NCBI GenBank assembly: GCA_030424715.1
Contig: JAUHWH010000002.1
Location: 273,080 to 337,079, forward strand
Direction of reading: 5' to 3'
Length of the DNA: 64,000 bases
DNA from: Bdellovibrionia bacterium
GTDB lineage: Bacteria > Bdellovibrionota > Bdellovibrionia > Bdellovibrionales > JAGQZY01
The first letter of the stretch is position 1. Each line of letters begins with the position of its first letter. Under the pieces are notes generated by a model, which was not told the DNA's origin, did no database searches, and saw only the letters and a program-made list of their open reading frames with translations. Below, one piece after another: positions 220-10,764 of this stretch. The position numbers were made by a program, and so were the translations under genes.

Positions 220-1287
220 GTGGACCCGATTTCTCAGAAAGTTATTCATATTGATATGGACTGCTTTTACGCAGCCGTCGAGATGCGTGACCGCCCTGAT
301 CTCCGAGATCGCCCCATGGCGGTTGGGGGGCGACCTGAATCTCGAGGCGTCATCACGACCTGTAACTACAAAGCTCGTGATTTTGGCGTCCATTCGGCTC
401 TTTCGTCGCGGGAGGCCTTAAGGCGCTGCCCCGATCTGGTCATTCTCCCCACTCGTTTTTCAAAATACAAAGAAGTGAGCCGGGCCATTCGTGCCATATT
501 CGATCGGTTCTCCGAGACCGTCGAGCCCATTTCTCTGGATGAGGCTTATCTCGATGTCACAAATAACCGTCAGTTCGATGGCAACGCCACCCAAACAGCG
601 CGCGCGATCCGCGCCGAGATCGAAAGCTCCTTAGGGCTCACCGCGTCCGCTGGGATTTCTAATAGTAAGTTTTTGGCAAAGATCGCAAGTGATTGGAAAA
701 AGCCCAACAACCAGTTCACCATCGCGCCGCCAGAGATCCCAGCATTTATGAAGAATCTTCCCGTGCAAAAAATACCGGGAGTCGGTAAAGCAACGCTAGC
801 GAAAATGCACAAGCTCGATATCCTTAATTGCCAAGATCTCCAGGCGTTGTCGGTTCAACAACTCACTCACCAATTTGGTGAATTTGGTATTCGGCTCTTC
901 GATCTCAGCCGAGGCATCGATCATTCAAGGGTTCGAACAGGACGAGCGCGAAAGTCTATTTCCGTTGAAACAACCTTAGCGAAAGATCTGGAACTTTGGG
1001 AAGGCATCGAAAAACACATTCACGCTCTGTTTGATGAACTCATGTTTCGTATGAAAAAATCAAAAGTAGATCCAGAATCCATAAAGTCGATTGGGGTCAA
1101 ATTTAAATCCAGTGAATTTCAGGTCACATCAAAGGAAAGTGCCCGGCCTTGTGACAAAGACAACTTTGTTAAGCTGGCGAAACAACACTTTTTTGATAGC
1201 AATATCTCCGTTCGACTGATTGGCATCGGCTGCAAGCTCAACGTCAAAGAGCCGCAAAAGTCGCGTCATCAGCTACGATTGTTTTAA
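220..1287 (+). CDS. dinB: DNA polymerase IV (Y-family translesion polymerase)
   Basis: Error-prone translesion DNA polymerase of 355 residues, normal length for DinB. The N-terminal catalytic motif HIDMDCFYAAVE carries D12, and SLDEAYLD carries D107 and E108; these are the expected metal-binding acids. A helix-hairpin-helix (IPGVGKATLAK, about residue 187) and the little-finger domain follow. The protein ends in QLRLF, a good match to the clamp-binding pentapeptide, so it should dock on the replicative sliding clamp. The GTG at 220 is the only plausible start, because an ATG at 199 runs into TGA after five codons; no strong ribosome binding site is visible. The 3' end overlaps the convergent pdxJ by 15 bases. 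No SOS operator was recognised upstream. Confidence 0.96.
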   Translation: MDPISQKVIHIDMDCFYAAVEMRDRPDLRDRPMAVGGRPESRGVITTCNYKARDFGVHSALSSREALRRCPDLVILPTRFSKYKEVSRAIRAIFDRFSETVEPISLDEAYLDVTNNRQFDGNATQTARAIRAEIESSLGLTASAGISNSKFLAKIASDWKKPNNQFTIAPPEIPAFMKNLPVQKIPGVGKATLAKMHKLDILNCQDLQALSVQQLTHQFGEFGIRLFDLSRGIDHSRVRTGRARKSISVETTLAKDLELWEGIEKHIHALFDELMFRMKKSKVDPESIKSIGVKFKSSEFQVTSKESARPCDKDNFVKLAKQHFFDSNISVRLIGIGCKLNVKEPQKSRHQLRLF

Positions 1288-2004
1288 ACAATCTAAATAC
1301 AAGGCGATGGTCTTTTCCCACCCGTAATGAAGAGCGTCGCAAACCAGGGCGTGACCAATCGACACTTCTTTAAGCTCCGGAATATTTTCTGCAAAATGGG
1401 CCAAATTATCCAGATTCAGGTCGTGACCGGCATTCACACCCAGTCCCATCGAGTGGGCGAGCTGAGCGCAATTTTGAAACACGCTCAAAACCTCAGCCAC
1501 CGTCTCTTCGGCATGGGCGACTGCGTAGGACTCTGTGTACATTTCAATACGATCAGCTCCCATATCTCTCAACGCGAGTAGTTCTTTGGTGTTGATTTCG
1601 TGGGGGTCTACAAATAGTGAAACTCGAATGCCCGCGCCCTTTAAGCGAGAGATTGTCGACGCCAGAAACTCCTCGTTACCAAAAACCTTCCAGCCCGCAT
1701 TCGAAGTGAGCACGTCGGGAGGGTCCGGTACAAGAGTGCACTGCCGGGGTTCAATCTCGCAGACTTTTTCAAGAAACTCGTCACTGGGGAAACCCTCAAT
1801 GTTGAGTTCCACAGAGATGTTATCTTTAAGCTCCAAGACGTCAGGCCACCGTATATGACGGCCATCCGGACGAGGGTGAACCGTGATTCCCTGGGCGCCG
1901 AAGCTTATGATTTTAAGAGACTCTTGCAGGACGTTGGGCCGGTCTCCGCCTCGGGCATTGCGCAGAGTTGCTACTTTATTAACGTTAACACTTAAAATGG
2001 ACAC
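1273..2004 (-). CDS. pdxJ: Pyridoxine 5'-phosphate synthase
   Basis: Cytoplasmic TIM-barrel enzyme that condenses 1-deoxy-D-xylulose 5-phosphate with 3-amino-1-hydroxyacetone phosphate in the last ring-forming step of the DXP-dependent vitamin B6 pathway. The 243-residue length is typical. Recognisable family blocks are the N-terminal VNVNKVATLRNARGG, the phosphate/substrate segment ITVHPRPDGRHI, VELNIEG, and the C-terminal NAGHDLNLDNL and SIGHALVCDAL. The start is a GTG (2004-2002) without a clear Shine-Dalgarno sequence. It is convergent with dinB and stands alone, with a 74-base spacer from the divergent signalling gene at 2079. Confidence 0.96.
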   Translation of the reverse strand: MSILSVNVNKVATLRNARGGDRPNVLQESLKIISFGAQGITVHPRPDGRHIRWPDVLELKDNISVELNIEGFPSDEFLEKVCEIEPRQCTLVPDPPDVLTSNAGWKVFGNEEFLASTISRLKGAGIRVSLFVDPHEINTKELLALRDMGADRIEMYTESYAVAHAEETVAEVLSVFQNCAQLAHSMGLGVNAGHDLNLDNLAHFAENIPELKEVSIGHALVCDALHYGWEKTIALYLDCLKQS

Positions 2005-2078: not shown

Positions 2079-5000
2079 ATGGAGCTGGCTGAAAAAAGAG
2101 CTCATTTTAGGGAAAACTCTTCACCTTTTTTGACCCCACTGCGAGTGATCTTAGTGGAACCAAAAGGTCAGCGCACTCCTGTAGAAATTATCAACTACCA
2201 TTTCAAAGGTGCTTGTTTTAAAACCACCGAAGGAAACTTAGACGCTCTCAACGAATCCAACACCCTGAAATTCTACATCGGAAATAAAGAGATACCAGAA
2301 AAGATCACTCACCGTATTGTGTGGGAAACCGTAGAAAAAAACGGGATGTTCGGCGTCGAGTTCACCGGCCTCTCCGCTTTTCACCTCGAGCGGGCCTCTC
2401 GATTCGACAGTCACAAAATAAACGTGCCCGTGCTTCACTGTAAGGACCCGCTGGACCCCAATCGAGTGATTTACTTCAAGGTGAGAAATCTCTCGAAGAC
2501 AGGTCTGCGCCTTAGCACATCGCTCACCAACAAGCACATCTTTCCAGGAATGGAGCTGATAGACGCCAATCTCACCATCCCTGGGGTTGGAGAAACCAGA
2601 CTCAACCTTTACATCGAAAATTGCAAAACCGAAAAAGACTCTATGGAAGCAGAGTACGGTGTTTCCATTCACAACCCATCCAATGAGTTTCTAGAATTGG
2701 CGGCCCACTACGTCTCCAATCTGGCAACCATCAAAAAAAATGAAAAAAGACTAGAGACTCTTGAATCCGCGCAGATGCTGAGCAAAAAACTAAGTGCCCA
2801 TCTCACAATTCAAATTATCGATTCTCCAGAAGAATATGAGAAAGTTTTGAAACTGCGGTTTTTAGGCTATCGAAAAGCCAAAAAAACCAGCTCTGATATG
2901 ACCTTTCGAGATATGGGAGAGGGCCTTAAGACTGAAGGCTTTGTGTTGGCCGCCTATCTCGCCGGCGAATTGGTGGCCAGTTGCGAATTTAGAATGAGCA
3001 AATTTCACGAACTGGTTTTAAGTAAAAAGCTTGATTTGTCGGCCTTCCCACAAGTGAATACCGATCACCTTTCAGAAATCAACAAGCTGGTTGTTCATCC
3101 AAAAGCCAAGGGTACTGACATTGTTCTCGGGATTTTTCAGAAAATCCATTCCATAGCGATTATCAACGGAACACCCGATGGCATTATTCTGTCTGAACCG
3201 AAATTGGTCTCCCTCTACGAAAGACTTGGCTTTCATAAGCTGAACTTCCAAATGGATCACCCTAAAAAGAAAAACATGAAGCTGGAGCTGATGCTCATTA
3301 AAGGGCAAGCCTATTCAGACTCCACTGGAATGAATCCTTACGCCTGGTCGGTGGCGTTTGAACTGAGCCATCAGTTCTTCTCAAATATTGGAGTTCAAAC
3401 CCAGGTCAATTTTAATATCAAACAACGCCTTGTAAAATCACTAACAAAGCATTATCTCAACTTCTCAAAACGCCGTAAAAAAGTTGACAAAACTCCGCTG
3501 AAAGCCTCCCCCAAAACCAAGAGCCAGCAACACAGCCGGGACGTCAGTGACCCCAGGTGGACGAAACAGCACATCAATGCCACTGTGTTTCTACCCTACA
3601 TCCTCGAATCAGAAGTCCTGATCGGCGTCAACAAGACTAACGAAATCCTGAATCATTTCGGTTTCGAAAAAAGCTACTTTAAAAAGTTAAGCAACTGGGT
3701 AAGCATTGACTTTTTCGATGGTTTTCTTGAAGCCTTCACAAAACTGGGTGACCCCTACACCCTGAATCGAAACGCAGGATACCGGGCCACCAGCAAAGAG
3801 ATTCTCGGTGCAAACTACTTTATAATGAAGCACTTTTTCTCTCCTCGTGTGGCCTTTAAAGCTTTTGAGCGATATTTACCCAAATTCAATAAGACGCGAG
3901 TCTATAAAGTCACGGAATCTGGTCTTAACCACTGCCGAATCACAATATCGAATCTTGATCGGTCGTTGATCCCAAAAAGTCACTCCACCCGAGAAAACTG
4001 GATCGCCCTACTGGACGCCTACGTGCGAGTTCTAACGGGCAAACCTGCGAAGATTGAAGTGATTCGATCGACTTTTGACGGCGACTCTCACTGTGAGTAC
4101 TTGGTGCGCTGGAAGACGCCTTTTTTTAAAAACCGGCTTTTTATACTCGCTGCCTTCTTGGTCAGTTTCTTCGTGTTTAGGGAAGACATTCTTCGGTTCC
4201 TTAACATTAAAATGTCCATTGAGACCATCGCGATTGCTGTTTCCTGTACTATTTTTACCTTGTCTTTTACGGCGTGGGTCCGGACCAAAAGAAAGTACCA
4301 GGACATCTTAGAGTCCATGCACGATTTCGAGCAAAATGCAGACATAAAATATCGGGAGCTTCAAGCGTCAAAACATATCCTAGAAAAAAACTACCAGGAA
4401 GGACGCCTGCTTGACTCGATCAACCGCAAGATTCAAACCGCCGAGGATCTCAGCGAGACCCTGCAAGTCGCACTCGAGAGTATCTGCAGTAACTTTGGCT
4501 TTAAGCGAGCCTTTATTATGATTATTGATGAAGAATCACAGGTCCTAAGAACAGCCGCGGTGCAAGGAGCACAAGACACCGTTACTGACTTGTGGCGCTT
4601 TCAAGTCGATGTCTCCAGTCGGCGAGACAACCCGGCCCTCCTCTCTTCGGTGTTTCACACCGGTCAATCAGTGGTCATCAATGATATCGCGAACCATCTT
4701 TTCCATCTGAACGAAACTTCACGCATTCTTATCAAAAAGCTCAATGTGACGGGGTTCTCAATGGTGCCGATTCCTTCTGAGAGTAAGAGTTGGGGTGTGC
4801 TTGTTGCCGACAAAGGCGATTCAAAAGAAGAAATCACCAGAAGAGAGCTGGTCTCGATGAAGCGAATTTCGCAATCCATCGGCCTGGCTCTCGACAAAAA
4901 GTCGAAGTTGGATTCTGAAATCACCACACGGAAAATATTTCAAAAGTATGTTCCCGCTTGGTTGGTCGACGAAACTTTAAAAAACAGAGAGCCAGAGCTT

Positions 5001-5579
5001 GGTGGTAAAACCAAACAAGCCATATGCCTCTTTTTAGATATACGAAATTTTACATATATCTCATCAGTCTTGCCTCCCGAGGTGCTCGTGGAAATGCTTA
5101 ATGATGTGTACCACAGTCTGCAAGAGACGGTCTCCGAGCACAAAGGAGTGATCGATAAATTTCTTGGTGACGGCGCTCTGGTCACCTGGGGTGTTTACCC
5201 CTGGTCTCCAATGGATGCGGACCTGGCTCTTGGCGCGGTCTTCGCTTTTCTTGAAAATCTCGAAGAACTCAACAAAAAGTTGCAACCGAAAGGGATTCCT
5301 CGGATCGAAGTGGGCGTTGGAATTCACAAGGGCCCAGTTATCGCCGGAAACATTGGTTCGAGCGAGCGTATGGAATTCACCGTTATTGGGTCGACCGTCA
5401 ATATGGCAGCTCGCCTGGAACAATTGACCAAAAAGTTTGACGCTCATATTGTGGTCTCTGAAGATGTTATTGATTTCGAGACCTTGTCGAAAGACTGGAC
5501 CGTGCATAAGAAGATTCAAATTCGTGGTATCGTCGAAAAACAAGACGTCGCCTGTCTCACGCATAAAAAGGGAGCTTAA
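2079..5579 (+). CDS. PilZ-PilZ / N-acyltransferase / V4R-like / TM / GAF / adenylate cyclase fusion protein
   Basis: A 1166-residue multidomain protein. Residues 1-100 look like a PilZ domain (RAHFR fits RxxxR, then a degenerate NYHFKG). Residues 105-210 look like a second PilZ (RNLSKTG fits NxSxxG). Residues 240-405 resemble the FeeM-type N-acyl amino acid synthase branch of the GNAT fold (LKLRFLGYRKA, SEINKLVVHPKAKG, SLYERLGF). Residues 500-690 resemble a V4R-type ligand domain ending GDSHCEYLVRW. Two membrane segments (about 686-705 and 713-734) and a short coiled coil lead to a GAF domain (about 785-940). Residues 980-1150 form a class III cyclase with metal aspartates D987 and D1031, K1027 and T1101 for the base, and N1108/R1112, so it should be active. 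The domain calls are from motifs by eye; the cyclase is the surest. It is probably an inner-membrane hub reading c-di-GMP and other ligands. The ATG at 2079 has no clear ribosome site. Confidence 0.85.
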   Translation: MELAEKRAHFRENSSPFLTPLRVILVEPKGQRTPVEIINYHFKGACFKTTEGNLDALNESNTLKFYIGNKEIPEKITHRIVWETVEKNGMFGVEFTGLSAFHLERASRFDSHKINVPVLHCKDPLDPNRVIYFKVRNLSKTGLRLSTSLTNKHIFPGMELIDANLTIPGVGETRLNLYIENCKTEKDSMEAEYGVSIHNPSNEFLELAAHYVSNLATIKKNEKRLETLESAQMLSKKLSAHLTIQIIDSPEEYEKVLKLRFLGYRKAKKTSSDMTFRDMGEGLKTEGFVLAAYLAGELVASCEFRMSKFHELVLSKKLDLSAFPQVNTDHLSEINKLVVHPKAKGTDIVLGIFQKIHSIAIINGTPDGIILSEPKLVSLYERLGFHKLNFQMDHPKKKNMKLELMLIKGQAYSDSTGMNPYAWSVAFELSHQFFSNIGVQTQVNFNIKQRLVKSLTKHYLNFSKRRKKVDKTPLKASPKTKSQQHSRDVSDPRWTKQHINATVFLPYILESEVLIGVNKTNEILNHFGFEKSYFKKLSNWVSIDFFDGFLEAFTKLGDPYTLNRNAGYRATSKEILGANYFIMKHFFSPRVAFKAFERYLPKFNKTRVYKVTESGLNHCRITISNLDRSLIPKSHSTRENWIALLDAYVRVLTGKPAKIEVIRSTFDGDSHCEYLVRWKTPFFKNRLFILAAFLVSFFVFREDILRFLNIKMSIETIAIAVSCTIFTLSFTAWVRTKRKYQDILESMHDFEQNADIKYRELQASKHILEKNYQEGRLLDSINRKIQTAEDLSETLQVALESICSNFGFKRAFIMIIDEESQVLRTAAVQGAQDTVTDLWRFQVDVSSRRDNPALLSSVFHTGQSVVINDIANHLFHLNETSRILIKKLNVTGFSMVPIPSESKSWGVLVADKGDSKEEITRRELVSMKRISQSIGLALDKKSKLDSEITTRKIFQKYVPAWLVDETLKNREPELGGKTKQAICLFLDIRNFTYISSVLPPEVLVEMLNDVYHSLQETVSEHKGVIDKFLGDGALVTWGVYPWSPMDADLALGAVFAFLENLEELNKKLQPKGIPRIEVGVGIHKGPVIAGNIGSSERMEFTVIGSTVNMAARLEQLTKKFDAHIVVSEDVIDFETLSKDWTVHKKIQIRGIVEKQDVACLTHKKGA

Positions 5580-5580
5580 T

Positions 5581-6222
5581 GTGGAGCAAGTTAAAGAAAA
5601 AATTAGCAAGGCTCAATTGCTTTTTAAAGAGAGAATGATCGCTATTCAGGAACAAGGGGGGCTCACGCGCGAGCGATATATCCGTTTTTTAACGTGCCAG
5701 TACCATTTAACGAAAGGTGTTCAAAGGCATTTCTACAGAATTGCCGCTCACTCTTCGTTGGCTCGCAAAAAACCATTACGGGATTGGTTGGTGCAATTTG
5801 CTCGAGAAGAAGAATTCCATTTTGATATCGCTAAAAAAGATTTAGAGCAGCTCGACAGCCAACCTTTGGAGTGCCCTTTTGATGTAGCCCTCTGGTGGCT
5901 TTATTTTGATTCCGTTGTTGATGAGAGGCCCTACATTCGGCTCGGGGGAACCTGTATCCTCGAGAACATCAGTAACACCAGTTCAGAAGTCATCGATCAA
6001 TCACTGGCAACCAGTGATTTTTTAACAGCACAAAACACTCGTTTTTTGACCATCCACCGTCACGGCCCGAACCTCGATCACGGCAATGAGATCATCAACA
6101 ATCTCGAAGCCAGCCAGCCCGACGAAGACGAATTGCGAGACCTGGAGCTTGGCTGTGAGTATGCCACCAGTTTCTATCTGCGATTTATGAGCTGGATGAT
6201 GACGGGCGAGATAAGTAAATAA
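5581..6222 (+). CDS. Heme-oxygenase-like (TENA/iron-containing redox enzyme type) protein
   Basis: Predicted all-helical 213-residue protein. The start is GTG at 5581, one base after the stop of the upstream cyclase fusion, with GGGAGC just inside that gene, so translation is probably coupled. Helices with RERYIRFLTCQYHL, REEEFHFDI (ExxH) and IHRHGPNLDHGNE are the pattern of heme-oxygenase-like oxidases, which bind a diiron centre with carboxylates and histidines. Known relatives oxidise or cleave amino-acid, fatty-acid or pterin-type substrates. The histidine/aspartate spacing in the last motif is not the textbook HxxxDxxH, so metal binding is uncertain. Coupling to an acyltransferase-cyclase suggests it modifies a ligand or product of that protein; this is inference. 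Its last 38 bases overlap the convergent ATPase gene. Confidence 0.75.
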   Translation: MEQVKEKISKAQLLFKERMIAIQEQGGLTRERYIRFLTCQYHLTKGVQRHFYRIAAHSSLARKKPLRDWLVQFAREEEFHFDIAKKDLEQLDSQPLECPFDVALWWLYFDSVVDERPYIRLGGTCILENISNTSSEVIDQSLATSDFLTAQNTRFLTIHRHGPNLDHGNEIINNLEASQPDEDELRDLELGCEYATSFYLRFMSWMMTGEISK

Positions 6223-6826
6223 TTCGGTCTGAAAACAGCTCCGACTCTTCGCGAGAGTGGGTCACCATCAATGCGGTGATTTGGAGCTGACTGAACAGCT
6301 CTTTGATCTCACCAATTAAGAACTGGGTCTGCTTTGGATCGATGCTGGAAAAGGGTTCATCCATAAGGACGATGTCGGGCTTTAAAGCCAGACAACGGGC
6401 CAACGCCACCTTCTGCCTCTCTCCACCACTCAATTGATAAGGGTGCTTGTCGAGGTGGTCTGAAAGTCCCATGGCCCCACAGAGGCGTTCCGCTTCGTCA
6501 TAGTGAGCCCGCGTCTTACAAGCATAAAAAATGTTTTTCTTCACGCTGACTCTTTCAAACAAGGCGAAGTTTTGGAAAACATAACCCAAGCGTCGATTCC
6601 CCGGAGGGACTTGTTTTCCTTGACCAGAAACCAATTGCTCACGCAGAAAAATCTCGCCAGAGTCCGGCGCCTCTAAGCCCGCGAGCAACCGAAGGAGACT
6701 GGTTTTTCCGCAGCCGCTTTCACCCAGCAAACTGACTTTTTCGCCTCTCTCCAGTTGACAAGAAAAGTTTGAGAGCACGGTGTTGGATCCCCGGGAGAAA
6801 CTCAGGTGACGGCACTCAAGAATCAT
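6185..6826 (-). CDS. fbpC: ABC transporter ATP-binding protein, probably ferric iron uptake
   Basis: Cytoplasmic ATPase subunit of 213 residues. Walker A is GESGCGKTS, the Q-loop region VFQNFALFE is clear, the signature is LSGGERQKVALARC, and Walker B plus catalytic Glu is VLMDEPFSS. An H-loop histidine sits in MVTHSREE. It is shorter than classical FbpC and lacks the C-terminal regulatory domain, which is more like ThiQ. The iron assignment rests on the substrate-binding gene at the head of the operon. Its start overlaps the permease 3' end by 11 bases, and it is the last gene of the operon. Confidence 0.9.
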   Translation of the reverse strand: MILECRHLSFSRGSNTVLSNFSCQLERGEKVSLLGESGCGKTSLLRLLAGLEAPDSGEIFLREQLVSGQGKQVPPGNRRLGYVFQNFALFERVSVKKNIFYACKTRAHYDEAERLCGAMGLSDHLDKHPYQLSGGERQKVALARCLALKPDIVLMDEPFSSIDPKQTQFLIGEIKELFSQLQITALMVTHSREESELFSDRIIYLSRPSSSSS

Positions 6827-8354
6827 AACCAGCCTCTGCGTCTTTGAGATTGATTAGCGCGACAGAAGTCATACCAATCAAAACCAGCATAAGACCTGGC
6901 AATGAGGCCTTCTCCCACTCCCCCTCTGATGTGAAATTAAAGATTTGAATGGAGAGAGTTTGAAACCCACCCGGGGCTAACATAAGAGTTAAGGGCATTT
7001 CTTTCATAACCTCGATCATCACTAAAAGTGTCGCCACACCACAGGAAGACCGGAGGTAGGGAAAAAGAAACAACCGAATACGGCGCCACCAAGGCACTTG
7101 AAAAACATCCGAAATTTCAAAGAGCTCTTTTGGCAAAAATTGCACGGCGTCACTCAAGGGCCTCATCGCTGCGGTCAAAAACTTGTGGGACAAGGCCAGA
7201 ACAAGGCCCACCAGCAAAACCGTCTCGGTGACGTTGGAAACCAGGGCCAGTAGAACCGCGTAGACTGCCACGGCCAGAATGCTTCCCGGAAGACTGTAAC
7301 CCACCGTTGAAAAGACAACCCACAGACGTGGGTTTTGGCGAGTTTGCCGCAACCAAACCAAGAGAGTCACCGAAAAGCCCACCACAAGAATTCCAACCAC
7401 AGCTCCCAAAGCCATGGTTTTTATGGCGAGGGCTGCTGCTTTTACCCATAGTTGGAAACTCTGGAGTTGCACCACCCAAAACAGGATCTGCAAGCAGGGA
7501 TAGACAAAAGCCAGAAGGATATAGAAGAAAAGCAAACACAGTAGCGCTTTCATAGAAAAGGGTAAGGACGACTGAGGGCGCAAGGGATCTCGCCCCGAGC
7601 TCACCGGCTCTCGCGAAAACGTTTTAAAGAGAAACTCTATGACCAAAAATAATAAAATCACCCCCGAGTACTTCAGCGAGATCTGTACGGCCCCCGCAAA
7701 AGAGAACAGATCAAACCACATTTTATAAATCATAGTCGTCATCACCGGCACATTGACAATAGAGGCCGCACCAAAATCAGATAAAGTTTCAAACATCACT
7801 AATATTTGAGCCGAAATCAAGAAAGGCAACAAGCGAGGCCAAGTGCTGTATCGGAAAAATAGCCAACGTCCCCCCTGCAAAAGAGATTCTGTTTCTCGCT
7901 CACTTTGCGTCATGCTTTGCAGACCAAGACTGGAGAAGTAGTAGACATAGGGAGTCAGGGCTAAGCTGAGGACAAAAACAAGAAACCAAACCGCGCCTTG
8001 AATCTCGAAAAAAGCCGACCATTCGGTCGCGGGGCCGAAAGCACCTAGATAAATAAAAGCCAAAACATAGGCCGGAAAAGCCAGAGGCATCAACAAGAGG
8101 CCGTGTAATATTCTCTTGTAGGGGTATTCATAAAAAGTGTGAAACAGGGCAAAGGCAACCCCCAAGAGGCTCGAAGACAACACCACACCCATTCCAAGCA
8201 AGAGAGTGTTTCGTTGGGCTAACGAAAACAAATCGGCACTAATAGGCTCAGCCTCATCAGCTAAAAAAAATAGCGCAATGAGGGGCAAAAGAAGAATGAA
8301 GCCAAACACTGCCACCCATCCCCCCCTCGAGTTTCCTTTCCGATAGCCAGTCAT
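6816..8354 (-). CDS. fbpB: Iron(III) ABC transporter permease, two fused halves
   Basis: A 512-residue inner-membrane protein with about twelve hydrophobic segments in two similar halves, the usual layout of FbpB/ThiP-type permeases. Each half has an EAA-like cytoplasmic loop that docks on the ATPase: LLQGGRWLFFRYSTWPRLLP in the first half and FEISDVFQVPWWRR in the second. The start codon overlaps the stop of the binding-protein gene by one base (TAATG), a sign of translational coupling. It would pass ferric ion from the periplasmic binding protein into the cytoplasm. Confidence 0.9.
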   Translation of the reverse strand: MTGYRKGNSRGGWVAVFGFILLLPLIALFFLADEAEPISADLFSLAQRNTLLLGMGVVLSSSLLGVAFALFHTFYEYPYKRILHGLLLMPLAFPAYVLAFIYLGAFGPATEWSAFFEIQGAVWFLVFVLSLALTPYVYYFSSLGLQSMTQSERETESLLQGGRWLFFRYSTWPRLLPFLISAQILVMFETLSDFGAASIVNVPVMTTMIYKMWFDLFSFAGAVQISLKYSGVILLFLVIEFLFKTFSREPVSSGRDPLRPQSSLPFSMKALLCLLFFYILLAFVYPCLQILFWVVQLQSFQLWVKAAALAIKTMALGAVVGILVVGFSVTLLVWLRQTRQNPRLWVVFSTVGYSLPGSILAVAVYAVLLALVSNVTETVLLVGLVLALSHKFLTAAMRPLSDAVQFLPKELFEISDVFQVPWWRRIRLFLFPYLRSSCGVATLLVMIEVMKEMPLTLMLAPGGFQTLSIQIFNFTSEGEWEKASLPGLMLVLIGMTSVALINLKDAEAGYDS

Positions 8355-9349
8355 TAGCGGTATTTAACAGAGTCCATGAGAAACACGGCCTTTTTTTGTA
8401 AAGCCCCTATTTCGGTCAAGGAAACATCTTCGCGCGAAAAGGCGCCCCATTTTTTTATCGTCTCCGAAGGGGCCACACCTTCGACAACGGGATACTCATC
8501 ATTGAGTCCTGCAAAAATCGCTTGAGCTTCTTTGGTGACTAACCACTCAAGAAAAGCAACAGCTTGCTTTTTGTGAGCGCTGGATTTTATCACTCCAGCA
8601 CCCGACACATTAACATGCACGCCACCATCCGATTGTTTGGGCCAAAAGACACCCACGTTTGAAGCGTCACCTTTTTTAATCATTCGCGCCAAGTAGTAAG
8701 TATTGGCAATACCCACCTGACAAATTCCATTATCAATCGCCTCGAGCAACTGAGAGTCACTGGTGAAAACCGGCTTTGTAAGATTGTTGACCCAGCCCTC
8801 TACAATTTTTTTGGTGCGGTCCTCTCCTAAGCGAGAAATCAAAGCCGCCACCAACGACTGGTTGTAGACCTTGCGACTGGTTCGCAGGCACAGTCGCCCC
8901 CTCCACTTTTCATCAGCCAATCCCTGGTAGCTGGCTAGCTCTTCTTTTTTTACCTTCTGCTTGTTGTAAAAAATAGTACGAGCTCGCAGGGAAAGCCCCA
9001 CCCACAGGTTGTTGGTGCCACGATCCTTTTTGGAGATACTCTGCAAAAGACTTTTTGACGCCAAGGGCTCTAATAAGCCCATTTTCGCCGCTTGCCCGAG
9101 ATTACCAGCATCCACTGTGATCAAAACATCGGCCTTGGTTTTTGCGCCCTCTTGTTTAATCTTTTGGATCAACACGCCGGCTTTTCCGTTGATATGCTTG
9201 ATGGAAACGCCAGTTTTCTTGGAGTAAGCCTCAAAAAGAGGTTCGATAAGGTGAGTCTTTCTGGAGGTGTAGACCGTCAGCTCCGGGGAAGACTCAGCAA
9301 AAGCAGAAACGACAATAAAAAGCGACAGAATCAACGACAGTAAGGGCAT
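8354..9349 (-). CDS. fbpA: Periplasmic iron(III)-binding protein of ABC transporter
   Basis: Periplasmic solute-binding protein of 331 residues and first gene of a three-gene transporter operon. The start at 9349 is chosen because AAGGAG stands just upstream and the protein then begins with a clean signal peptide (MPLLSLILSLFIVVSAFA). An upstream GTG/ATG at 9403 would bury that signal. The mature part begins ELTVYTSRK, as in FbpA/FutA proteins. The family's twin tyrosines that ligate ferric iron are present in NTYYLAR (about residues 218-219). LCLRTSRKVYNQSLVAA is also family-typical. No convincing Fur box was found in 9350-9525. Confidence 0.92.
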   Translation of the reverse strand: MPLLSLILSLFIVVSAFAESSPELTVYTSRKTHLIEPLFEAYSKKTGVSIKHINGKAGVLIQKIKQEGAKTKADVLITVDAGNLGQAAKMGLLEPLASKSLLQSISKKDRGTNNLWVGLSLRARTIFYNKQKVKKEELASYQGLADEKWRGRLCLRTSRKVYNQSLVAALISRLGEDRTKKIVEGWVNNLTKPVFTSDSQLLEAIDNGICQVGIANTYYLARMIKKGDASNVGVFWPKQSDGGVHVNVSGAGVIKSSAHKKQAVAFLEWLVTKEAQAIFAGLNDEYPVVEGVAPSETIKKWGAFSREDVSLTEIGALQKKAVFLMDSVKYR

Positions 9350-9525
9350 GGGCTCTCTCCTTGAAGGACTCTCACCTATAGACAATGGTGACAGAGCCCT
9401 CAAGGAGAATTCCCGGGGGGGCCAAATATCAAGTGACCAGTATCATTTCTTGTTCAATTGGTGGACTCAAACCTCGAAAAAGTATATAACTTAGGCCACT
9501 TAACACGTGTTTCCAGGGGTTTTTC

Positions 9526-10764
9526 ATGAAATTACAACCGGTCCGTGGCACCCGCGATATCTATGGCGACGAGGCCCGCCTTTTTAGAGAAATCGATCAG
9601 CATTTTGCAAAAACTGCTTCCCTTTTCGACTTTCAAGAAATCGAAACACCCATCTTTGAATTCACCAGTGTGTTCCAGAGAACTTTGGGCGAGGGCTCAG
9701 ACATCGTCAATAAAGAGATGTACACCTTCGAAGACCGTAGTGGAGACTCTCTAACCCTAAGACCCGAGGGCACTGCGAGCGTGGCTCGTGCTGTAATTTC
9801 AAACTCCATGCTGCGTGATTTGCCTTTAAAACTTTTTTATTCAGGACCGATGTTTCGCCACGAACGCCCCCAAAAGGGTCGCTATCGACAGTTCACCCAA
9901 TTTGGCATTGAACTCATTGGCGTACCGACGCCGGTGGCAGACATTGAGGTGCTTGCCTGCGCCTGGATGTTTTTTAAAAATTGTCAGCTTTCCGATAAAG
10001 TGCAGCTTGAGCTCAATACGATAGGAGACGCCGACAGCCGAGATCAGTACAGAAGCAGACTGGTCAGCCATTTTGAGAAGTTTTCTAAAGATCTTTCCGA
10101 AGACAGTCAGGTTCGTTTAAAATCCAACCCCCTTCGAATACTGGATTCCAAAGATCCTAAAGATCAGGCTCTGATTGCCGACGCGCCGCTATTTTCCGAT
10201 TCCCTGAACCCAGCCTCGCAACAGTTTTTTGATCAGGTGGTTGAGGGCCTTAACCAACTGAATATTCCCTTTCAACTCAATTCTAAATTGGTGCGTGGTT
10301 TGGATTACTACTGTCACACCGTTTTTGAGTTCACAACCACTCATCTCGGTTCTCAAAATGCGGTTTTGTCGGGCGGGCGTTACAACGATCTAATAGAATC
10401 CATGGGCGGACCGAGCACTCCAGGAGTTGGCTGGGCGGCCGGCACCGATCGCCTGGCTCTTCTCTTAGAAAAACCCAGAACCCATCATCAGAATGTGGCG
10501 GTGATTGCCGCTGTTGCTGAGGCCGAGCCTCTCTTATTACCTCTGGTCAGTGAGCTGCGCGACAATAACATCGCCAGTCAGCTGATTTATTCTGGAAATA
10601 TGTCAAAGCAGTTAAAGAAGGCCAACAAGCGTAACTGCAGTCATGCCATACTGATTGGTGAAGATGAAATTCAATCGGGGCAATACCAGTTGAAGCATTT
10701 CGCTGATGGCAGCCAGATATCGGTTTCCAAGCAAGAACTTCTTAGAAAGCTTAAAGAACTCTAA
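9526..10764 (+). CDS. hisS: Histidine--tRNA ligase
   Basis: Class II aminoacyl-tRNA synthetase of 412 residues that charges tRNA-His in the cytoplasm. Motif 2 is FRHERPQKGR (110-119), and the histidine-specific loop LVRGLDYY is near residue 260. Motif 3 GWAAGTDRLALLLE and GGRYNDL are present, followed by an anticodon-binding domain with the typical ending (ISVSKQELLRKLK). The ATG at 9526 has CAGGGG upstream. The maf gene overlaps its stop by one base (TAATG), so the two are co-translated. Confidence 0.97.
   Translation: MKLQPVRGTRDIYGDEARLFREIDQHFAKTASLFDFQEIETPIFEFTSVFQRTLGEGSDIVNKEMYTFEDRSGDSLTLRPEGTASVARAVISNSMLRDLPLKLFYSGPMFRHERPQKGRYRQFTQFGIELIGVPTPVADIEVLACAWMFFKNCQLSDKVQLELNTIGDADSRDQYRSRLVSHFEKFSKDLSEDSQVRLKSNPLRILDSKDPKDQALIADAPLFSDSLNPASQQFFDQVVEGLNQLNIPFQLNSKLVRGLDYYCHTVFEFTTTHLGSQNAVLSGGRYNDLIESMGGPSTPGVGWAAGTDRLALLLEKPRTHHQNVAVIAAVAEAEPLLLPLVSELRDNNIASQLIYSGNMSKQLKKANKRNCSHAILIGEDEIQSGQYQLKHFADGSQISVSKQELLRKLKEL

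Follow-up and report, generated by a model that had tools for sequence, protein, structure and literature searches.

Linkage of a heme-oxygenase-like protein family to GNAT-type acyltransferase genes in Bdellovibrionales

The heme-oxygenase-like diiron oxidases (HDOs) MboA, UndA, HrmI, BesC and SznF have their fold and a ligand pattern (E-x2-H, E and a His-rich stretch) in common with the protein described here, and for MboA the ligands are given as Glu86, His89, Glu143, His172, Asp176 and His181 (available part of PMC13185094). The partner of our protein, referred to below as the window oxidase, is a GNAT, unlike the partners described for the pathways of these five enzymes. The closest solved structure by fold is 3dde (Sden_3740 of Shewanella denitrificans), the best PDB match in VIA-align (Z 22.1, rmsd 2.8, 210 residues aligned), and it is also the closest by the profile of the oxidase family (7.3e-36). 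In the alignment 3dde carries all six ligand residues including the canonical Asp, which the window oxidase lacks. For GN2, the GNAT family that is the usual partner of the oxidase, the described proteins that come nearest in predicted fold, by a small margin, are the LuxI-type and aryl-HSL synthases RpaI and BjaI, with which the model aligns over residues 4-219. As in LuxI systems, a regulator-like gene is often adjacent in GN2 loci, but it is PAS-like instead of LuxR, and an oxidase is added. Finally, operons of Gamma- and Betaproteobacteria with the order T_hemolysin, AMP-binding, iron-containing redox enzyme and SDR also place a member of the same oxidase family beside a GNAT-like gene; these operons differ in that the GNAT belongs to another family and that an extra ligase and SDR are present.

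Genes and proteins of the window locus

The window, by which we mean the whole stretch of 64,000 nucleotides that was analysed, is part of contig C8 in the 3.13 Mb genome of a bacterium related to the predator Bdellovibrio. The features of the locus are as follows.

1273..2004, minus strand: pdxJ, anchor gene on one flank (Pfam)
2079..5579, plus strand: fused synthase-cyclase gene, 1166 aa (Pfam, homology to the separate genes of relatives, hydropathy, motifs)
Residues 5-100 of the fused protein (best Pfam stretch): PilZ domains
2937..3293, plus strand, residues 286-405: FeeM (N-acyl amino acid synthase, PF21926) domain (Pfam)
Middle region of the fused protein: homologous to the N-terminal part of the separate cyclases of relatives
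Residues about 681-735: two hydrophobic stretches (hydropathy)
Residues 790-938: GAF (Pfam)
5019..5528, plus strand, residues 981-1150: class III nucleotide cyclase domain (Pfam Guanylate_cyc)
5570..5574, plus strand: putative ribosome-binding site GGGAG, within the fused gene (sequence)
5581..6222, plus strand: heme-oxygenase-like protein gene, 213 aa, GTG start (ORF list, sequence, predicted fold)
6185-9403, minus strand: ABC transporter set of three genes (ATPase, permease, solute-binding protein)
9526..10764, plus strand: hisS, anchor gene on the other flank (ORF list)

Only two genes, the fused synthase-cyclase gene and the oxidase gene, lie between pdxJ and the ABC transporter set, with hisS beyond the latter. 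The stop codon of the fused gene (TAA) occupies 5577-5579, the GTG of the oxidase gene follows one base later at 5581, and six bases separate GGGAG from this GTG in the window sequence. An earlier sequence-only reading of this DNA had placed the oxidase start one base past the upstream stop and its ribosome site within the big gene, and both points were confirmed on the sequence. Given that the pair recurs in other genomes (see below), its occurrence in the window is not due to chance. The ABC transporter set converges on the oxidase gene and its ATPase gene overlaps the oxidase 3' end by 38 bases; the order of its genes is reminiscent of iron(III) uptake systems. The set is missing at the corresponding position in G001.

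The domain order of the fused protein, obtained from Pfam, hydropathy and motifs, was PilZ-PilZ-FeeM-TM-GAF-class III cyclase, and the matches to FeeM, PilZ, GAF and Guanylate_cyc agreed with the label 'acyltransferase-cyclase' that the protein had been given. The FeeM domain passes the Pfam cut-off (27.4 bits in the window and 39.6 bits in G001, cut-off 27) and is also conserved in relatives. A weak resemblance of the middle region to Arabinose_bd (0.0053) was found in L024 only. The Guanylate_cyc match (72.1 bits) identifies the last domain as a class III nucleotide cyclase, and the motifs FLDIRNF, DKFLGDG and FTVIGSTVNMAARLE at residues 985, 1026 and 1100, which are presumably the metal-binding and catalytic motifs of this class, are intact. 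In the second PilZ domain, ERASR is found in the window versus ERRTSNR in relatives, the latter being of the type that we take to be the c-di-GMP-binding motif of PilZ, and c-di-GMP binding by the second PilZ domain is therefore doubtful.

When searched alone, the window oxidase had no match in Pfam or NCBIfam and no significant sequence match in the PDB; Haem_oxygenas_2 (PF14518), which did not match the window protein, was matched at E 0.01 by 35 of the 38 aligned relatives. The AlphaFold2 model obtained from a 38-row alignment of relatives was all-helical with eleven helices (mean pLDDT 93.6, pTM 0.89). Further VIA-align matches of the model were CADD (Z 19.0), HrmI (18.9) and UndA (17.2), and in Foldseek 3dde was the sole entry below E 0.001 (1.4e-4 and 2.0e-4), followed by TenA homologues, CADD and UndA. 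A heme-oxygenase-like fold is thus well supported for the predicted structure, and the designation heme-oxygenase-like, proposed before a model was at hand, holds on this fold and on the structure matches to 3dde, CADD and HrmI.

Linkage of oxidase and acyltransferase genes within and beyond the order

A profile made from six oxidases was searched in 140 genomes of the order and matched in 101 of them. This overturned an apparent rarity of the window oxidase, which in a single-sequence search had been found in 2 of 58 relatives besides its own genome. Profile matches with an E-value of up to about 1e-23 were fetched with about 5 kb on each side; the counts do not include weaker matches or the partial match G047:C199.

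A GNAT-type gene was located within 1 kb of 98 of the 112 oxidase genes (110 loci), either upstream on the same strand (80), downstream on the same strand (8) or on the opposite strand (10). Of the 14 oxidase genes without a GNAT within this distance, three belong to the fused forms, whose GNAT domain is part of the gene immediately before the oxidase. In L103 the GNAT is 1.1 kb away, in L157 (E 2.7e-4) and L140 (E 0.07) the neighbour is a divergent GN2-like gene, in L156 it is a gene of 219 aa, and L080, L107 and L163 are at contig ends. No GNAT neighbour at all was seen for L075, L079, L144 or the degenerate copy in L127. The oxidase neighbour in L075 and L079 appears by eye to be methyltransferase-like and not GN2. 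In the 1.05 Mb examined, there was no GN2 match more than 1 kb from an oxidase, except for L103 and the fused genes, and in two genomes a single open frame naturally encodes both GN2 and oxidase (L118:4913-6280, 455 aa, and L068:4259-5635, 458 aa). Linkage of the oxidase to an N-acyl-amino-acid-synthase-type GNAT, as suggested from the window, is therefore borne out by the order as a whole and is wider than the sequence-only reading knew.

The window's own genome contains a second, standard GN2-oxidase pair (L124, G000:C12:25500-35500, at about 4820-6050), whose oxidase scores above the Pfam cut-off for Haem_oxygenas_2. BdHM001_36580/36570 likewise form a GN2-oxidase pair. In L235:2732-3437 the oxidase match is in two pieces beside a GN2 gene, as would result from a frameshift or an assembly error.

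TenA, CADD and heme oxygenases are found within the same fold family, and the window oxidase might be an unrelated housekeeping enzyme of this kind (a TenA thiaminase, a CADD-like protein or a true heme oxygenase) that is located here by chance. The GNAT linkage in 98/112 loci and the two protein fusions make this explanation very improbable. True heme oxygenases, furthermore, carry the axial haem-ligand His in the first helix, whereas the helix at residues 2-24 of the model, which is the site of this ligand, has no His, and none occurs before residue 42 of the window protein.

None of 32 GN2 members matched any synthase family in Pfam, LuxI-type included, and no PDB sequence match was obtained. 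The AlphaFold2 model of GN2 (32 sequences) had a pLDDT of 92.7 and a pTM of 0.89, and a Foldseek search with it placed BjaI and RpaI at the top (7.4e-7 and 1.2e-6), with EsaI, LasI and FeeM lower. In VIA, GN2 versus RpaI gave Z 15.9 over 191 residues and generic GNATs gave 15.0 over fewer residues, a difference of less than 1 Z that should be read as a tie. According to the model, GN2 would have a GNAT fold that over its full length is most like the AHL synthases, by a margin of about one Z. Comparison of GN2 with the FeeM domain in hhalign gave 77-82%. The window FeeM was among the sequences in the seed alignment of the first GNAT profile, and the FeeM matches of this profile are therefore circular; an independent profile from which the FeeM rows had been removed gave no FeeM match by HMMER, and the link between GN2 and FeeM comes via hhalign alone.

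Genes for candidate sensors were frequent near the oxidases. Within 3 kb there was a PAS-like gene for 84/112 oxidase genes and an HTH gene of the Xre type (HTH_31) for 46/112, both profiles having been built from neighbours in the same loci, so that these counts measure recurrence and are not an independent test. The PAS identity is weak, given that PAS_9 was matched by 3 of 24 members with a best E of 0.0042 and that a PDB search with the PAS-like protein returned no PAS match. In the eight FeeM loci with an oxidase, neither a PAS-like nor an HTH gene is found and a cyclase is present instead.

GN2 was detected in 135 of 368 genomes of the phylum, 43 of which lie outside the order. An oxidase was located within 1.1 kb of GN2 in 19 of the 23 outside-order loci examined, which were picked by hand, not at random, from the listing of the 43 matching genomes. 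Twelve GN2 loci within the order, fetched for having no oxidase match, were confirmed to be without an oxidase, and the oxidase is therefore not obligatory. A PAS-like gene is present in 8 of these 12 loci, indicating that the synthase and the PAS-like gene may occur together with no oxidase nearby.

Outside the phylum, a tblastn search with the G001 oxidase gave 44 plasmid records, of which 13 were inspected together with one Bdellovibrio plasmid from another search. The order 'thermostable hemolysin' - 'AMP-binding' - oxidase - SDR was found in 9 of the 13 (L257-L260, L262, L263, L266, L269 and L270), and in one of these nine the oxidase match falls inside the gene annotated as AMP-binding. 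The oxidase has a sub-threshold FeeM-like gene upstream in Deefgea, an annotated acetyltransferase beside it on a Pseudomonas coronafaciens plasmid and a 195-aa gene beside it on a Rhizobium plasmid; no GNAT-like gene was present at the oxidase locus of a Nostoc plasmid. The GN2 search led to a plasmid of Bdellovibrio sp. HM001, on which a GN2 gene is present together with an oxidase annotated only as hypothetical. T_hemolysin and the FeeM profile gave 88% in hhalign, and sequence comparison suggests that the plasmid 'hemolysin' may be an acyltransferase rather than a toxin. That GN2 and T_hemolysin are one family was rejected (hhalign 0.3%).

FeeM loci and the metal ligands of their oxidases

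PilZ-FeeM was found in 16 of the 140 order genomes, and in 13 of these 16 FeeM adjoins or is fused to a cyclase or cyclase-like gene; the short proteins of the oxidase-free FeeM loci are named cyclase-like solely from their similarity to the long cyclases, and the one in L027 matched no Pfam family. A fused synthase-cyclase with an oxidase downstream was present in the window, G083 and G084 (L071 and L074 besides the window), and in L071 and L074 the two genes overlap, with the oxidase ATG 14 nt before the end of the large gene, so that the coupling is tighter than in the window. In G001 (same genus) and G003 (same family) the parts are split over three genes, with the oxidase, on the opposite strand, between FeeM and cyclase, and G085 and G127 show the same arrangement. 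In G025, FeeM and oxidase occupy one contig end and a relative of the cyclase protein (L031:2-3352) occupies another; in the latter, histidine kinase and receiver domains lie between GAF and cyclase. The locus is positioned between pdxJ and hisS also in G001 (L024) and G047 (L026), and pdxJ adjoins it in G001, G003 and G047. Judged from gene order, the window carries the rarer form, in which the putative synthase domain is fused to a cyclase that is a separate neighbour in relatives.

The claim that the two genes form a translationally coupled and conserved pair was upheld in part. Adjacency and linkage are kept in relatives, but coupling is seen in three loci only, and in five FeeM-split loci (L024, L025, L030, L064 and L065) the adjacent oxidase is on the opposite strand, which weakens the coupling argument and leaves the adjacency intact. 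Absence of the oxidase from same-genus relatives was considered and rejected, since a diverged copy sits on the other strand. The tree groups the fused-type oxidases in one clade with a long stem (SH-aLRT 100) and the FeeM-split oxidases in a second (94), and a single clade of all FeeM-linked oxidases was not rejected (p-AU 0.508). The window oxidase may be a FeeM-split gene that has moved and diverged, or it may be a replacement.

An oxidase was present in 8 of the 16 FeeM loci and absent from the other 8. Five of the eight oxidase-free loci (L026, L027, L028, L236 and L238, all FeeM-cyclase loci) carry a PEMT/ICMT-type methyltransferase, and oxidase and methyltransferase never occurred together (0 loci). 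It is possible that the two enzymes represent alternative tailoring steps on the same product. The same observation could also fit a product that is not a signal: the pair might make a structural or secreted lipid (an N-acyl amino acid surfactant or an aminolipid), with the cyclase merely regulating its production. FeeM-type enzymes, going by the Pfam name, would make N-acyl amino acids, and the methyltransferase that stands in for the oxidase in five FeeM loci is in line with a lipid product. We regard this explanation as unlikely, given that the common GN2 form is accompanied by PAS-like and HTH genes and not by genes for lipids or export, and that the GN2 fold is nearest to autoinducer synthases, though generic GNATs are within about 1 Z.

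The pattern E-x2-H, E, H-x3-D-x2-H was invariant in 20 diverse Bdellovibrionales oxidases and is visible in 3dde, and all six ligands were present in 133 of 137 aligned oxidases. The four exceptions were the window, L071, L074 and the degenerate L127 copy; the last (L127:4932-5513, in G084) has lost most ligands and is without a GNAT neighbour. The window oxidase keeps E77, H80, E128, H159 and H167 and has N164 at the position of the canonical Asp, and all three fused-type oxidases (window, L071 and L074) have this Asp to Asn change with a one-residue insertion and an invariant HRHGPNLDH. The sequence-only reading had proposed to check whether E/H/D residues converge on a diiron site; at the sequence level, five of the six canonical ligands are present and the Asp is not. 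Given the Asp to Asn change, a standard diiron site is not secured in the window oxidase. Having five of the six residues, it falls short of the canonical HDO set (three His, three Glu/Asp) and is not classed with these enzymes, but might function like them.

The fused-type protein might instead have ceased to be a diiron oxidase and serve as a sensor or regulatory subunit of the synthase-cyclase, in a mononuclear, metal-free or heme-binding state. The replaced Asp with its one-residue insertion, the invariant HRHGPNLDH, the three invariant His lying close together (H159, H161 and H167) and the long stem branch of the clade would all fit such a change of role. The other five ligand positions are nevertheless kept in all three proteins, which is unusual for a decayed site, and the side chains of H161 and D166 could substitute for the Asp; on balance, we think it improbable that the oxidase function has been given up.

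A possible acylated signal and what it would mean

The explanation that we prefer is that the heme-oxygenase-like protein is a tailoring oxidase and that, jointly with a FeeM-type GNAT, it produces an acylated amine or amino acid as a signal, which in the window would be read by the cyclase; we give it an even chance of being correct. The GNAT would transfer an acyl group from acyl-ACP or acyl-CoA onto an amine, and the heme-oxygenase-like enzyme, as a non-heme iron protein, would oxidise the substrate or the product, which might then be secreted. In the window, the simplest reader of the product would be the sensory portion of the synthase-cyclase itself, and the cyclase would turn this reading into a cyclic nucleotide; c-di-GMP might be a further input, via the PilZ domains. 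In other loci, PAS-like and HTH proteins would be the readers. Sensing is plausible from the gene context, given that a candidate sensor, GAF and cyclase are on one polypeptide in the window and that PAS-like and HTH genes are beside the common form. B. bacteriovorus is reported to have at least 18 PilZ proteins, genes annotated as adenylate cyclases and a c-di-GMP phosphodiesterase that responds to cAMP (available part of PMC6717892), and a cAMP output would therefore have a target in the group.

The acylated-signal explanation is favoured by the fold, the 98/112 linkage, the two fusions, the AHL-synthase-like predicted fold of GN2, the association of FeeM with cyclases and the alternation with the methyltransferase, and also by the PAS-like and HTH neighbours and the T_hemolysin operons outside the phylum. 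Against it are the Asp to Asn change, the opposite-strand oxidase in five split loci, the dispensability of the oxidase (12 GN2 loci and 8/16 FeeM loci), the long stem of the fused-type clade and the doubtful c-di-GMP binding by the second PilZ domain.

We found no report of an acyltransferase/heme-oxygenase-like oxidase pair in Bdellovibrio or the phylum in the open-licence literature, which is weak evidence of absence. Pseudomonas quinolones have been described as acting on Bdellovibrio (available part of PMC8461301), and for Micavibrio, which is also a predator, luxI and luxR genes are reported (available part of PMC3189940).

The occurrence of oxidase and acyl-transfer genes together across the phylum points to a small-molecule, possibly cell-to-cell, signalling system. 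More tentatively, and with the chances against it, Bdellovibrionota may have a quorum-sensing-like system of their own, in which a LuxI-fold synthase outside the named Pfam synthase families and a heme-oxygenase-like iron oxidase would make an oxidised acyl-amine autoinducer that is read by PAS/HTH proteins, the window holding a derived form with synthase and receptor-cyclase in one protein. If true, the window form would connect the making of the signal directly to a second messenger inside a single molecule. Should a signal be the product of the pair, the two genes are ready for knock-out and can be used to ask if these bacteria, which include many predators, communicate, and by what means. 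The association of oxidase and acyltransferase also provides a hypothesis on the type of reaction for many unassigned heme-oxygenase-like proteins, 3dde included, and the synthase-cyclase fusion of the window is useful evidence when neighbouring genes are assigned to a pathway.
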